Shown here: in pieces, positions 6,279 to 11,126 of the stretch | Layout: the number at the start of each line of letters is the position of its first letter | Numbering within the stretch: position 1 is the stretch's first letter | Assembly (NCBI GenBank): GCA_002712305.1 | Contig: PATE01000010.1 | Span: 36,340-56,142, forward strand | Length of the DNA stretch: 19,803 nucleotides | Source of the DNA: Gemmatimonadota bacterium | GTDB lineage: Bacteria > Latescibacterota > UBA2968 > UBA8231 | Direction: 5' to 3' | Position numbers and translations under genes: made by a program | Notes under the pieces: generated by a model | The model's input: the letters and a program-made list of their open reading frames with translations, nothing else | What the model was told of the DNA's origin: nothing | The model's database searches: none

Positions 6279-6608
6279 ATGTCCGACCCGATCACCTTGA
6301 CCGATGACAATTTCGACAACGAGGTTGTGAAATCCGATCAACCCGTGCTCGTCGATTTCTGGGCCTCGTGGTGTGGGCCCTGCCGTATGGTGGCACCCAT
6401 CGTCGAAGAGTTGGTCTCCGAATACGACGGGCGAGCTAAGGTTGGCAAGCTCGATGTCGACGCGGCACAGAAGACTGCGGGGGAATACGGCATTCGCAGC
6501 ATCCCAACGTTGCTGATCTTCAAAGATGGCAAGGTGGCCGACCAGGTCATCGGCGCCGTCCCCAAGACGCAGATTACGGAGAAATTGGACAAGGTTCTGA
6601 CCGCCTGA
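6279..6608 (+). CDS. trxA: Thioredoxin
   Basis: Thioredoxin reduces protein disulfides in the cytoplasm (ribonucleotide reductase, peroxiredoxins, methionine sulfoxide reductases) with electrons from thioredoxin reductase. The 109-residue protein has the classic length and active site W31-C32-G33-P34-C35 inside 'VDFWASWCGPCR', the cis-proline P76 in 'SIPTLLIF', and the 'F-K-D-G' turn after it. No signal peptide is present. The ATG at 6279 has AGGAG six bases upstream. It stands as a single-gene unit with its own strong promoter (6126-6154) and terminator (6632-6668). Confidence 0.97.
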   Translation: MSDPITLTDDNFDNEVVKSDQPVLVDFWASWCGPCRMVAPIVEELVSEYDGRAKVGKLDVDAAQKTAGEYGIRSIPTLLIFKDGKVADQVIGAVPKTQITEKLDKVLTA

Positions 6609-6631
6609 GGTTAGGACATGACTGAAAAAAC

Positions 6632-6668
6632 GACGCTCTCTCTTGGCAGGAGGGGGCGTCTTTTCTTT
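6632..6668 (+). terminator. Rho-independent terminator after trxA
   Basis: A stem of about 13 pairs (6632-6644 with 6648-6660, including several G-U pairs) around the tight loop GGC is followed by TTTTCTTT at 6661-6668. Six A residues precede the stem (6625-6630), so it may also stop weak antisense transcription. Confidence 0.85.
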
Positions 6669-6751
6669 ATCTATGACGGTGTCTCAGCGTCTGCGACTCC
6701 ATCGGATGTCACGAACGGATACTCGAAGTTGGCGACCGGAACGATCTGACT

Positions 6752-7333
6752 ATGGCCAAGGACCCCTTCTGGAGTAATCTCTTCCGCCGCCGCAGCGAGC
6801 AGGAAGACGAGCTGTACGAAATTCTGAGCCAGGTTCCCATCTTTCAGGACCTCGGACGACGCGAGTTCGAGCGTGTTCGTGGGATCCTGCATCGTCGCAC
6901 GTACGGCGAAGGGGAAGCGATCGTCAGAGAAGGGGATGTGGGAGTTGGAATGTATGTCATCCTCTCCGGAGAGGTTTCGATCGTTCAGCAAGGGACCGAT
7001 GGCCAGCAACTCGAGTTGGCACAGTTTGGTCCGGGAGACTTTTTCGGCGATCAGGTTCTACTCGATGAGTCTCCGCGAACCGCCTCCGTGCTGACGCGAT
7101 CGACGACGCGCGCCGTCGGGTTCTTTCGTCCTGATCTGCTCGAACTGATCGAACGGAACCCGCGTCTCGGACTGAAAATCGTCATGCGGCTCTCGCAGAT
7201 GATCTCCGTGCGGCTGCGGCAGACAAACCGCTTGCTGAAAGAAGCACGGGGCCGGGCTCGCAAGGCCGAAGAAGATCTCGCCGCGGCAGCTGCCTCCGAC
7301 GAACAAGAGCCCGCAGTACCCACCTCGACTTGA
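6752..7333 (+). CDS. Cyclic-nucleotide-binding (CAP_ED) domain protein without a DNA-binding domain
   Basis: Residues about 22-140 form one cNMP-binding beta-roll of the CRP/cAMP-receptor type: 'PIFQDLGRREFERVRGIL' (helix A), 'GEAIVREGDVGVGMYVILSGEVSIV' (beta roll), and the phosphate-binding cassette 'FFGDQVLLDESPRTASV'. In the cassette the usual ribose-contacting glutamate (FGE) is aspartate D100, while the phosphate-contacting arginine is present as R109. Instead of a helix-turn-helix the C-terminus has a helical Arg/Lys-rich segment (about 141-178) and an Ala/Pro-rich end, so it is not a transcription factor of the CRP type. Its stop is followed at once by, or overlaps, the start of the AI-2E-family permease gene, suggesting that it acts with that membrane protein. 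Ligand unknown. Confidence 0.88.
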   Translation: MAKDPFWSNLFRRRSEQEDELYEILSQVPIFQDLGRREFERVRGILHRRTYGEGEAIVREGDVGVGMYVILSGEVSIVQQGTDGQQLELAQFGPGDFFGDQVLLDESPRTASVLTRSTTRAVGFFRPDLLELIERNPRLGLKIVMRLSQMISVRLRQTNRLLKEARGRARKAEEDLAAAAASDEQEPAVPTST

Positions 7334-7344
7334 GGATCGGTTCA

Positions 7345-8832
7345 GTGGACGGACTTTTCGGACAACGCATCAAGGTTCTGCTAGGCATCCTGGGGCTCGT
7401 GGCAGCCCTGTGGTTCATCTATGCAGTGCGGGGAATTCTCGCCCCGTTTATTCTCGCCTTCATCCTCGCCTATGTCATGACGCCGCTGGTGGACCGCATG
7501 GAAGGTCGTGGTCTTCGGCGCACGGCCAGCATTCTGCTGATCTTCGCCGGTGGGTTTGTCGGCATCACACTCGGAGTGGTCACAGCGGGGAAGAAGCTCG
7601 CCCAGGAGATGATCGACCTCTCCGTTGAGTTCCTGCGTGAGGAAACGACGGAGCGAGAGTTAGTCATCCGCAATGATGGTACGGCGCGCCCCATGATCGT
7701 CGAGCTGGATGTCATCGGCGCCGGTGTTGGTATTGGGGTGAACCCCTTCACTATCGTCGAGCCGCGTGCGGACGAGACCGTCATCATTGAACCGCGCAGT
7801 GAACAGATCGTCCGCATCCGCTTTTCGCCACCTGAGGTGACTCCCTTTGCCGGCAATCTTACCGTCCGTGAGGAAAGAACGGGCAAGATCGCCTACAAGA
7901 TTCCCCTGCGTGGAAATGCCGATGTGGGGGATGGATGGGCCGGATACTGGAGTGCCAACAAGTCGCAGGAGCGTCTGTGGCGAACCCCGGCCTTCTGGGA
8001 ATTCGACCGGGACAAGGAGACCGACTGGGGCGAAATGGGTTTCAGCGCTTCGGGTTTCGACTTCGGCTCCGCAGGGCCCAACATCCTGACCAAGATCACG
8101 GTGTTGGCAAAGAATCTCGAACCCCATGTACAGCCGATCATCGGTCAAGATACCGACCTGGCCACACTGATTCAGACTCACGGCTCCCGACTGATCAATG
8201 TACTGCTGGGTCGAACCTCCGAACTGGTGGGGGGCTTATTCTCGGGGATCATGCTCATAGTTATCGTCCCCTTCGTGGCGTTCTTCTTCCTGCGTGAGGG
8301 GCGGCGCATCACGCATGGAATGATCGAGATGGTCCCCAACGGCTATTTCGAGATGACACTGAATCTGCTTCACTCCATCAACAACTCGATCGGTGGGTAT
8401 ATCAGGGGCCAGATTCTGGCCGTGAGTGTCGTCGCGGTCCTGGCGGGCACAGGGCTGATGCTGATTGAGGTTCCTTACGCCTGGCCCGTGGGCGTATTGG
8501 CTGGTCTCGCCAATATGATTCCCTATCTCGGCCCGATCATCGGGATTGCAGCAGCGACGATCGTCGCCTTGGCCACGCTGGGCGGCATGTCGATGGTGAC
8601 CAAGGTCATCATCGTCTTCGCCATCATTCAGATTGTCGACAATGTCCTGATTCAGCCTGTTGTGATCGCCAAGAGTGTCGATCTACACCCCCTCGTTGTT
8701 CTGGTGGTGGTGATGATCGGTAGCGATCTATGGGGAATCGTCGGAATGCTGATCGCCGTTCCCGCCACGGGGATTCTGAAGGTCAGTACGCAGACGATCT
8801 ACGACGGCGTCCGCGGGTACTCCGTAACCTGA
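7345..8832 (+). CDS. AI-2E-family (PerM/YhhT-like) permease with an inserted Ig-like ASH/HYDIN-type domain
   Basis: N- and C-terminal parts match the AI-2E/PerM permease family: two to three N-terminal membrane helices (starting 'LLGILGLVAALWFIYAV' and 'APFILAFILAYVMTPLVD'), and a C-terminal block with 'VPFVAFFFLREGRRI', 'GGYIRGQILAVSVVAVL', 'LANMIPYLGPIIGI' and 'VLIQPVVIAKSVDLHPLVV'. The usual length is near 350; this protein has 495. The excess sits after the third helix: residues about 100-192 (bases 7642-7920) read as an immunoglobulin-like beta sandwich with 'ELVIRNDGTARPMIVEL', 'IVRIRFSPPEV' and the closing 'IPLRGNA', the pattern of ASH/HYDIN domains, followed by about 60 Trp/Gly-rich residues. 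Start: GTG at 7345 has GAGG nine bases upstream; a TTG at 7330 overlapping the previous TGA would add five residues. Substrate unknown; family members have been linked to export as well as ion transport. Confidence 0.88.
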   Translation: MDGLFGQRIKVLLGILGLVAALWFIYAVRGILAPFILAFILAYVMTPLVDRMEGRGLRRTASILLIFAGGFVGITLGVVTAGKKLAQEMIDLSVEFLREETTERELVIRNDGTARPMIVELDVIGAGVGIGVNPFTIVEPRADETVIIEPRSEQIVRIRFSPPEVTPFAGNLTVREERTGKIAYKIPLRGNADVGDGWAGYWSANKSQERLWRTPAFWEFDRDKETDWGEMGFSASGFDFGSAGPNILTKITVLAKNLEPHVQPIIGQDTDLATLIQTHGSRLINVLLGRTSELVGGLFSGIMLIVIVPFVAFFFLREGRRITHGMIEMVPNGYFEMTLNLLHSINNSIGGYIRGQILAVSVVAVLAGTGLMLIEVPYAWPVGVLAGLANMIPYLGPIIGIAAATIVALATLGGMSMVTKVIIVFAIIQIVDNVLIQPVVIAKSVDLHPLVVLVVVMIGSDLWGIVGMLIAVPATGILKVSTQTIYDGVRGYSVT

Positions 8833-8877
8833 CGGACCACCAGCTCCTTCAGACTGGCCCCAACGCTACGCGCCTGG

Positions 8878-8907
8878 TTGACAAGGTGGGGGGCGGAATG
8901 CTACCTC
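8878..8907 (+). promoter_or_regulatory. Candidate promoter for the cold-shock-domain gene and clpX
   Basis: A perfect TTGACA (8878-8883) is followed after 18 bases by TACCTC (8902-8907), preceded by TG as in extended -10 promoters. The -10 match is poor. If used, it would give a leader of about 180 bases before the TTG start at 9096, as long as cspA-type leaders. Confidence 0.35.
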
Positions 8908-8972
8908 AATACGTCGGATTGTCGTAACTTCGAGTCTGTCCCTGTCCAGCGGAAACCACCGATTGGACCGTC

Positions 8973-8997
8973 GGCGAGGGACGATCTATCGCTCGCC
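8973..8997 (+). other. Hairpin in the leader of the cold-shock-domain gene
   Basis: GGCGAG (8973-8978) pairs with CTCGCC (8992-8997), with an inner CGA/TCG pairing around TCTA and a 3-base bulge on the left. No T-run follows. It sits in the 263-base gap 8833-9095, in which I see no gene, only this hairpin, a second one at 9039-9066 and a candidate promoter. Confidence 0.4.
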
Positions 8998-9038
8998 CCA
9001 TCAGGTAATGATGGCGGATGAGCGACTTCAAACCTGCA

Positions 9039-9066
9039 ACTCTGAGATTCCTCTAACACTCAGAGT
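9039..9066 (+). promoter_or_regulatory. Leader stem-loop with a loop complementary to the downstream Shine-Dalgarno
   Basis: ACTCTGAG (9039-9046) and CTCAGAGT (9059-9066) form a perfect 8-bp stem with a 12-base loop. The loop bases TTCCTCT (9048-9054) can pair with AGAGGGA (9081-9087), which overlaps the ribosome-binding site of the cold-shock-domain gene, with one G-U pair in seven. This could form a pseudoknot that hides or exposes the start site. Inferred from sequence only. Confidence 0.4.
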
Positions 9067-9095
9067 GGGGCGCCTGTTTCAGAGGGAGGAGTTTC

Positions 9096-9887
9096 TTGGC
9101 TTCGTTACAGATCAATCAAGCGACCATCGATTCTGTCGCCGATCGAATCGTAAATGCCCGCCAACTCCACGGGAAAGACAGTGCCTATGCCATCGGCCTG
9201 AATGCAGGCATCGAAATGCTGCTCGGGACCGATGTAGATACAGCCAAACAGATTCGGGCGAAGGTCCTGGAACTGGAGTCTGATAAGGCCCCAGTACAAA
9301 GCCCTCGCCCGTCAGCACCTGCTCCGGTTGTCAAGGAACACGCTGAAAAGGCACCGCAAGGAGATGATGACGCAACGCCCCTTGCCGAAAACACATGGAT
9401 TCGGGGTCACGTCAAATGGTTCAACAACGACAAGGGCTACGGTTTCATCTCGACCGATGCCAATACAGACGTCTTCGTCCATTGGCGCGACATCTCTTCC
9501 TGGGATCGATCGCTCACGCAAGGTGACCCCGTTGAGTTCATGGTCACCAAGACGGCCAAGGGCTTTCAGGCCATCAATGTGATGAAGCCAGGCGGTGAAG
9601 GGGCCGAAGACGAGAAGGCGGCAGAAGGATCAGCCGAGACGGCCCAACCTGGTGATGGGTCGGAGGCAGGCCCTGCAGTGGCGCCACCGGTGGTGCAGGG
9701 TGATGCTCCCGTTGAGACGCCCCCTTCGACATCTGATGCGGCTGAGCCTGCTGCAACAGAGCCAGAGGCGACTCCCCAGACCGCCCCGATAGCTGTCGAT
9801 GAAGGCTCAGAGCCCGCGGAATCGCCTCAACCTCAACCCTCTGCCGACGTAAACGCCGGCGGTAGCGGCGATACACAGAACGGCTGA
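9096..9887 (+). CDS. Cold-shock-domain protein with an N-terminal helical region and a long acidic Pro/Ala-rich tail
   Basis: The central residues 102-163 are a cold-shock domain: 'GHVKWFNNDKGYGFIS' with RNP1 K113-G-Y-G-F-I118, and RNP2 V126-F-V-H129, both needed for single-stranded nucleic acid binding. Ordinary Csp proteins are about 70 residues; this one has 263. Residues 1-62 look helical ('IDSVADRIVNARQLHGKDSAYAIGLNAGIEML') and match no family I know, followed by a Pro-rich linker. Residues about 165-263 are low-complexity, rich in Glu, Ala, Pro and Gln, hence probably disordered and acidic. Start is TTG at 9096, supported by GGAGG at 9085-9089 six bases upstream. clpX follows after 9 bases with its Shine-Dalgarno overlapping this stop codon, so the two are almost certainly co-transcribed. 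Probably an RNA-binding protein; its target is unknown. Confidence 0.9.
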   Translation: MASLQINQATIDSVADRIVNARQLHGKDSAYAIGLNAGIEMLLGTDVDTAKQIRAKVLELESDKAPVQSPRPSAPAPVVKEHAEKAPQGDDDATPLAENTWIRGHVKWFNNDKGYGFISTDANTDVFVHWRDISSWDRSLTQGDPVEFMVTKTAKGFQAINVMKPGGEGAEDEKAAEGSAETAQPGDGSEAGPAVAPPVVQGDAPVETPPSTSDAAEPAATEPEATPQTAPIAVDEGSEPAESPQPQPSADVNAGGSGDTQNG

Positions 9888-9896
9888 GGATCGACG

Positions 9897-11126
9897 ATGC
9901 TGAAGAAGCCACGCAATACGGTCAGTTGTTCGTTCTGCGGGAAGGGCGTGGGCCAGGTTGAGAAGATCATCACCGGCCCGTCCGTCCATATCTGCAACGA
10001 ATGCGTGGCCTTGTGTAATGAGGTCCTCGAAGAAGAGACTAAGCAGGAACCTAATCTCAATGGCAACCCCCTGCCCAAACCTGCTCAGATCAAAGAGCAA
10101 CTCGATGAGCATATCATCGGACAGGAGAGGGCGAAGAAAGCCCTGTCTGTCGCCGTCTACAATCACTACAAGCGGGTCCATTCCGGTACGTCCGATGTAG
10201 AACTGACGAAAAGCAATATCCTTCTTCTCGGTCCAACGGGCACGGGCAAAACGCTGTTGGCCGAGACGATGGCCCGCATCCTTCAGGTGCCCTTCGCCAT
10301 CGTGGACGCAACCGTCCTCACCGAAGCGGGGTATGTCGGTGAAGATGTAGAGAACATCCTCGTTCGAATCCTGCAGGCCGCTGACTATGATGTGGCTCAG
10401 GCGGAGCGGGGAATCCTGTTCATCGACGAAGTCGACAAGATTGCCCGCAAGTCAGGCAATCCATCGATTACGAGAGATGTGTCAGGCGAGGGGGTACAGC
10501 AGGAACTGCTCAAGATTCTTGAGGGAACCGTTTCGGGCGTTCCGCCAAAGGGTGGTCGGAAACATCCTGAACAGCCATTGGTTCAGATCAACACACGAAA
10601 CATCCTGTTTATCTGTGGCGGCGCCTTTGATGGCCTCGACAAGGCGATCGCCGCTCGCACCGGTCGCCGTGCGATCGGTTTCGGAGCAGCCGGTACAGAT
10701 GCTGCAGACGCTGACGTGGGACAGCTGTTGGCCCGGGTCGAACCCGAGGATCTGGTGCAGTATGGCCTGATCCCTGAACTGATCGGCCGGCTACCGGTGG
10801 TCAGTGCGCTGCACCCTCTCAGCGACGACGCGCTGCTCGATATTCTCGAGAGACCCAAGAATGCGCTGATCCGGCAATATCAGAAGCTGTTCGAGATGGA
10901 CGGCCTGTCCCTGCGTTTCGAAGAAGATGCGCTGAGAAAGGTCGTAGAATTGACACGAGAAAAGTCGATGGGGGCTCGCGGCCTTCGAGCGGTCCTGGAG
11001 ACGGCGATGTTCGAAATCATGTTTGAGCTGCCATCGAAAGATGATGTGAAAGAGTGTGTGATCACGAGGGACTTTATCTCCGCCAAGGGGCCGCCGACCT
11101 TCGTTCACAAGCGCAAGCGCGCCTGA
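9897..11126 (+). CDS. clpX: ATP-dependent protease ATP-binding subunit ClpX
   Basis: ClpX is the hexameric AAA+ unfoldase that feeds tagged proteins (for example ssrA-tagged) into ClpP. All hallmarks are in the 409 residues: the zinc-binding domain C11-x2-C14...C33-x2-C36, Walker A GPTGTGKT (112-119), pore-1 loop GYVGED (145-150), Walker B LFIDE (174-178), RKH loop (221-223), the ClpP-docking IGF tripeptide (260-262), and the sensor-2 box 'SMGARGLR'. The IGF motif shows that it can partner a ClpP, and a ClpP gene lies 2 kb away on the other strand. In many bacteria tig-clpP-clpX are contiguous; here clpX instead follows a cold-shock-domain gene by 9 bases. The ATG at 9897 is preceded by GAGGA (9886-9890). 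Confidence 0.98.

Follow-up and report, generated by a model that had tools for sequence, protein, structure and literature searches.

An AI-2E-type permease of one Latescibacterota class carries an ASH/PapD-like, probably circularly permuted insert and is encoded beside a cyclic-nucleotide-binding protein

Two groups of described proteins resemble the product of the locus presented here: ASH-type domains, which are best known from cilium and centrosome proteins, and permeases of the AI-2E family. TqsA-family proteins can form pentamers, and the PDB entry of Escherichia coli TqsA (7nb6) holds five chains of identical sequence. Members of the AI-2E family may differ in function; PhoA fusion placed the N-terminus of one of them in the cytoplasm, and the C-terminus of a family member was located outside, which leaves the number of helices in the family unsettled (PMC7221264). 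Such permeases were present in 13 of the 14 control genomes, and a match was obtained in 56 of the 60 related genomes that we searched. In the window, by which we mean the whole stretch of 19,803 nucleotides analysed here, the two groups meet in one protein: an ASH-type domain is placed in a bacterial transporter, whose gene follows that of a protein with a cyclic-nucleotide-binding domain (CNBD) (Table 1). What is new here is the presence of the insert at one site in one class, its probable permutation, and the pairing of CNBD and AI-2E genes in six phyla. We found nothing relevant in the open-access literature on either the ASH-permease architecture or the CNBD/AI-2E pairing, and novelty is claimed within this limited coverage.

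Table 1. Features of the two-gene locus, in positions of the window.
Feature	Coordinates	Strand	Evidence
Gene for soluble cyclic-nucleotide-binding-domain protein, 193 aa	6752..7333	+	PF00027 1.6e-21; conserved neighbour; binding motif
Gene for AI-2E-type (TqsA-type) permease, 500 aa	7330..8832	+	PF01594 1.6e-57; TqsA fold Z 17.7
Three N-terminal membrane-type helices, residues 7-101	7348..7632	+	AlphaFold2 helices 7-32, 34-59, 64-101; hydropathy
ASH/PapD-like sandwich core, residues 104-196, strands B to G	7639..7917	+	Cep192_D4 4.9e-8; seven strands 107-195; CEP192 SPD-2 domain Z 8.4
Trp-rich linker, residues 197-230	7918..8019	+	pLDDT 48-58 over 201-230; alignment
Strand-A-like segment (WGEMGFSASGFDFGSAGPN region), residues 231-250, end of insert; probably permuted	8020..8079	+	Native domains carry it before the core; +10.7 bits when moved to front; strands pLDDT 81-91
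Remaining AI-2E fold: soluble helices and C-terminal membrane helices	8083..8829	+	PF01594 positions 88-325; model

The window permease has the family profile and the membrane-part fold of E. coli TqsA and YdiK (7ot9). Its match to PF01594 lies above the curated cut-off across the membrane core (195.6 bits, for a cut-off of 34.3) and comes in two pieces, which cover positions 7-82 and 88-325 of the 327 of the profile, the second at residues 251-489 of the permease; in the genome search these pieces score 161.7 and 40.0 bits, and the insert lies between them. TqsA is devoid of the insert: a profile built from 36 relatives of the window permease matches it outside the insert, in two adjacent pieces that meet at TqsA residue 92. 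The AlphaFold2 model of the full permease (pLDDT 84.4, pTM 0.60) aligns with TqsA (7nb6_A) at Z 17.7 over 327 residues, with an rmsd of 5.9, and with YdiK at Z 9.3 (Foldseek, VIA-align). The insert-free relatives found have mostly 340-440 residues, against 500 in the window permease, and the excess of about 150 residues, put at about 140 in a preliminary description of this DNA, lies between the third membrane helix and the fourth.

The insert is an ASH/HYDIN/CEP192-type beta sandwich, a solid identity, on which profile matches, the AlphaFold2 model and fold searches agree. When excised, it matches Cep192_D4 (4.9e-8, 33.6 bits, for a curated cut-off of 35.5), Cep192_D3 (5.9e-4) and ASH (0.095), staying below the curated cut-off for every Pfam ASH-type model; the native-order core of one relative (L027) reaches 36.1 bits with PF22544, whose cut-off is 25.5. 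Over the insert, the profile of 36 relatives matches PDB chains of HYDIN, FAP47 and CEP192, the HYDIN match having a whole-sequence E-value of 2.3e-14 with no single domain passing alone. In the model of the permease, the N-terminal helices are followed by the seven strands, mostly at pLDDT about 90, then by a linker at about 201-230, short strands at 231-238 and the helices of the family. The top match of the insert, above other PapD-like folds, is the SPD-2 domain of CEP192 (7ptb; Z 8.4, rmsd 2.1 over 90 residues). Modelled alone, the insert has the same strands (pTM 0.76) and matches 7ptb at Z 8.0; across both models the comparisons give Z 8.0-8.4 and rmsd 2.1-2.2, and a Z near 8 supports a common fold while carrying no information on function. 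The seven-stranded sandwich is thus common to the insert, CEP192 (see also 6fvi) and HYDIN (7sqc), but in the window it sits within a membrane permease and its first-strand segment apparently comes last. One domain of the PapD-type periplasmic chaperones FaeE, FimC and CsuC, which are two-domain soluble proteins of pilus assembly, also resembles the insert at Z 6-7; this likeness of fold provides no evidence for a chaperone function of the insert.

These results agree with the preliminary description in that it had proposed, at 7642-7920, an AI-2E permease with an ASH/HYDIN-type domain inserted after the third membrane helix: profiles, model and fold searches return a sandwich of the ASH/PapD-like families, neither helical nor disordered, whose core (7639-7917) fits these coordinates. 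It had further held that the domain replaces the usual soluble helical region, and here it was mistaken. Helices 252-271 and 277-300 are present after the insert and align with those of insert-free relatives; the usual helical loop is kept behind the insert, which is hence an addition and not a replacement. The AlphaFold2 model rules out such a replacement, and together with the alignments it also rules out an ordinary family loop or a disordered stretch. The Trp-rich segment described after the sandwich does exist, but it is a linker modelled at low confidence, and in the alignment its form in the window occurs only in the window's species and in the one congener compared.

In the aligned proteins, the insert occupies one identical site in four families of a single class of uncultured Latescibacterota. 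In the AI-2E proteins outside this clade, including those of other Latescibacterota families and the paralogues, helix 3 is joined directly to the soluble helices. When the insert profile was run against 64 genomes of the phylum, full-length matches were obtained only within the window's class; shorter matches restricted to the core lie mostly in long open reading frames, and those that were fetched are repeat-type ASH proteins. The insert is absent from the fetched AI-2E proteins of Bacteroidota, Elusimicrobiota, Bacillota, Ca. Poribacteria, Thermodesulfobacteriota and others, a sample drawn by similarity to the window permease and not exhaustive. Searching named genomes by pattern gave nothing when the insert alone was the query, but a longer alignment did find it; in the named records its hosts are metagenome-assembled genomes that bear the labels Ca. 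Latescibacterota, Ca. Handelsmanbacteria or Gemmatimonadetes. The same insert occurs in more than 30 independent genomes, which rules out an assembly or sequencing artefact. The best core tree implies two label changes, with an insert-free family of small genomes (f8) next to the insert-bearing family f1, yet a single insert clade is not rejected (p-AU 0.386), and we have discarded the idea that two independent gains are required. One gain followed by a loss in f8, or a misplacement of f8 in the tree, is possible.

The coupling to an upstream cyclic-nucleotide-binding gene, also part of the preliminary description, is borne out by the overlap of the TGA stop of this gene with the TTG start codon of the permease at 7330-7333. 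The partner protein matches PF00027 above the curated cut-off (76.5 bits, for a cut-off of 27.5), and its motif FFGDQVLLDESPRTAS follows the phosphate-binding pattern F-G-E-x-x-L-L ... P-R-[ST]-A, with D in place of E and the Arg and Thr kept. The motif is altered in some orthologues of the partner, and some are devoid of key nucleotide-binding residues. In one genus-level group (L116-L119 and L123), it reads FFGAQALVDxSPRPAS (FLG in L123), with the E/D and the T/S lost, which suggests that cyclic-nucleotide binding is altered or lost in these partners. A CNBD homologue lies directly upstream in 18 of the 18 loci inspected more widely, even where the other neighbours differ. We then surveyed 78 loci chosen by permease similarity alone, 74 of them with upstream sequence, and found a same-strand CNBD neighbour in 57: all 31 insert-bearing loci and 26 insert-free ones. 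These pairs span six phyla (Latescibacterota, Elusimicrobiota, Ca. Poribacteria, Gemmatimonadota, Neomarinimicrobiota and Thermodesulfobacteriota), and the 17 loci where the neighbour is missing are mostly Bacteroidota-related or from Bacillota. Since the neighbour accompanies insert-bearing and insert-free permeases alike across these phyla, the pairing probably predates the insert, and the two genes apparently form a conserved two-gene unit (loci L099-L176). No fusion of the two was seen among them; the candidates with long open reading frames (L154 and L160), checked by hand, have the CNBD in another frame. Such a neighbour provides a direct handle on the regulation of AI-2E permeases.

The strand order of the insert departs from the canonical A-to-G order. 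Its core begins directly after the membrane helix, and a segment of the form F-S-x-S-x-x-D-F-G, resembling strand A, comes after the core; because of this position we class the insert as a probably permuted variant of the ASH fold rather than as an ordinary ASH domain. In the long ASH proteins of the same genomes, a hydrophobic-x-x-D-F-G-like segment stands directly before the core in most domains (77 matched stretches). We built a profile of 70 native domains and scored the insert against it with the segment placed in front of the core, using shuffles for comparison. The score of the window rises from 33.6 to 44.3 bits and none of 100 shuffles is as high; the mean gain in the window's family is 8.4 bits, whereas the true upstream residues, used as a control, add nothing to the score of the window and raise the family mean by 2.0 bits. 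Of 200 random draws of 21-residue pieces from the permease, which could overlap the segment itself, 2 reach the score of the window. After the move, three of the four clearly matching relatives have PF22544 coverage from position 2-3 onwards, where it previously began at 23-24. Judging from these scores and from the model, the sandwich looks circularly permuted, with the first strand after the last; support for this is good for the majority of the window's family and weak elsewhere: in seven members of genus g7, 1-16 of 100 shuffles score as high, and in families f2-f4 the mean gain is just 2.6 bits. The ranges given by VIA-align consist of first and last residues only, and the structural searches gave no confirmation of the permutation.

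The simplest origin would be a stretch cut from a tandem ASH array in phase B-G-A instead of A-G. Strand A, now last, would complete the same sandwich, and both ends of the insert would lie at the former A-B loop. The insert shows that an Ig-like fold can occur in nature within a membrane protein, probably by way of a permutation through which the two ends of the fold come to lie close to each other. A plausible source is provided by the long ASH-repeat proteins of the same genomes (e.g., G000:C52, locus L070), which match the same core profile; they differ from the permease in having strand A before the core, usually tandem copies, and no AI-2E part. One array (L075, G037:C14:81500-87500) consists of ASH repeats in tandem, eleven of them matched, each about 105 residues long and nearly identical to the others; excision from an array of this kind could yield a domain in shifted phase.

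For the locus as a whole, we propose an explanation to which we give an even chance. An AI-2E-type permease, a putative solute or ion transporter, is encoded with a soluble CNBD protein that would probably act from the cytoplasmic side to regulate either the permease or its production. Within one Latescibacterota class, the permease would have gained the probably permuted ASH/PapD-like sandwich in an extracytoplasmic loop after membrane helix 3. If it is a homopentamer like TqsA, five insert domains would stand round the outer mouth, and this ring could serve envelope partners as a platform for docking or assembly. The insert is predicted to lie outside because the N-terminus is cytoplasmic in the PhoA data of one homologue, three helices precede the insert, and the loop between helices 2 and 3 is basic (PLVDRMEGRGLRR); the sensor protein, with no membrane or export segment evident in its sequence, is predicted inside. 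A bolder version, in which a two-gene module of at least six phyla combines regulation by the CNBD at the inner face with an outer sensor or docking ring of permuted ASH domains in Latescibacterota, would make a single transporter the meeting point of inner and outer signals; we regard it as quite unlikely.

Other explanations bear on single parts of this proposal. The D-F-G segment might be a remnant of another ASH repeat that followed the core and has been lost, which would leave a single sandwich devoid of strand A. Native tandem arrays do have the strand A of the next domain directly after the last strand, the gain upon permutation is weak in f2-f4, and the pairing of segment and core is predicted from sequence and model confidence, not from coordinates. 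Yet few parts of the insert are as well conserved as this segment (F149, G150 and P154 of A3), it is modelled as short strands at pLDDT 81-91 past a linker at pLDDT about 50, in the insert alone as in the full protein, and the residues upstream of the core form helix 64-101, so that no other strand A is at hand. We therefore hold a vestige to be unlikely, if slightly less so than the bolder version above. Another alternative concerns the role of the domain. The most conserved positions of the insert (N, F-x-P and G-N) are structural for the fold, its identity to the window outside the genus is 15-34%, which indicates fast divergence, and the alignment displays no obvious conserved surface patch; moreover, the insert-free f8 keeps the same permease and partner gene. 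All this would suit a passive structural add-on that stiffens the oligomer, holds it like a clamp or rests on the surface of the membrane, and that was kept by descent in one class in the absence of any specific partner. However, the insert is kept in all four families of the class where an orthologue of the permease was found, which suggests some selected role, and we consider a passive add-on somewhat unlikely.

The preliminary description, which suggested a permease gated by a bound partner and pointed to the coupled cyclic-nucleotide-binding protein, can be read instead as having this protein dock on the ASH domain and gate the permease through it. The overlap of the two genes, the clear CNBD match and the presence of the sensor gene beside every insert-bearing permease with upstream sequence would all be expected under such gating. 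But sensor and insert are predicted on opposite sides of the membrane, so that binding to the insert is probably not how the sensor works, and the 26 insert-free pairs imply that the insert is not needed for the pairing. This leaves gating through the insert very improbable.

Around the two genes, the order trxA, CNBD, AI-2E, cold-shock protein and clpX (6279-11126 in the window) is kept across the window's family, and in the other families of the class just CNBD and AI-2E stay together out of this order. The cold-shock gene of the window (9096-9887) encodes a protein of 263 residues with a single cold-shock domain at residues 103-164, which has an unassigned N-terminal part before this domain and a long acidic, Pro-rich tail.
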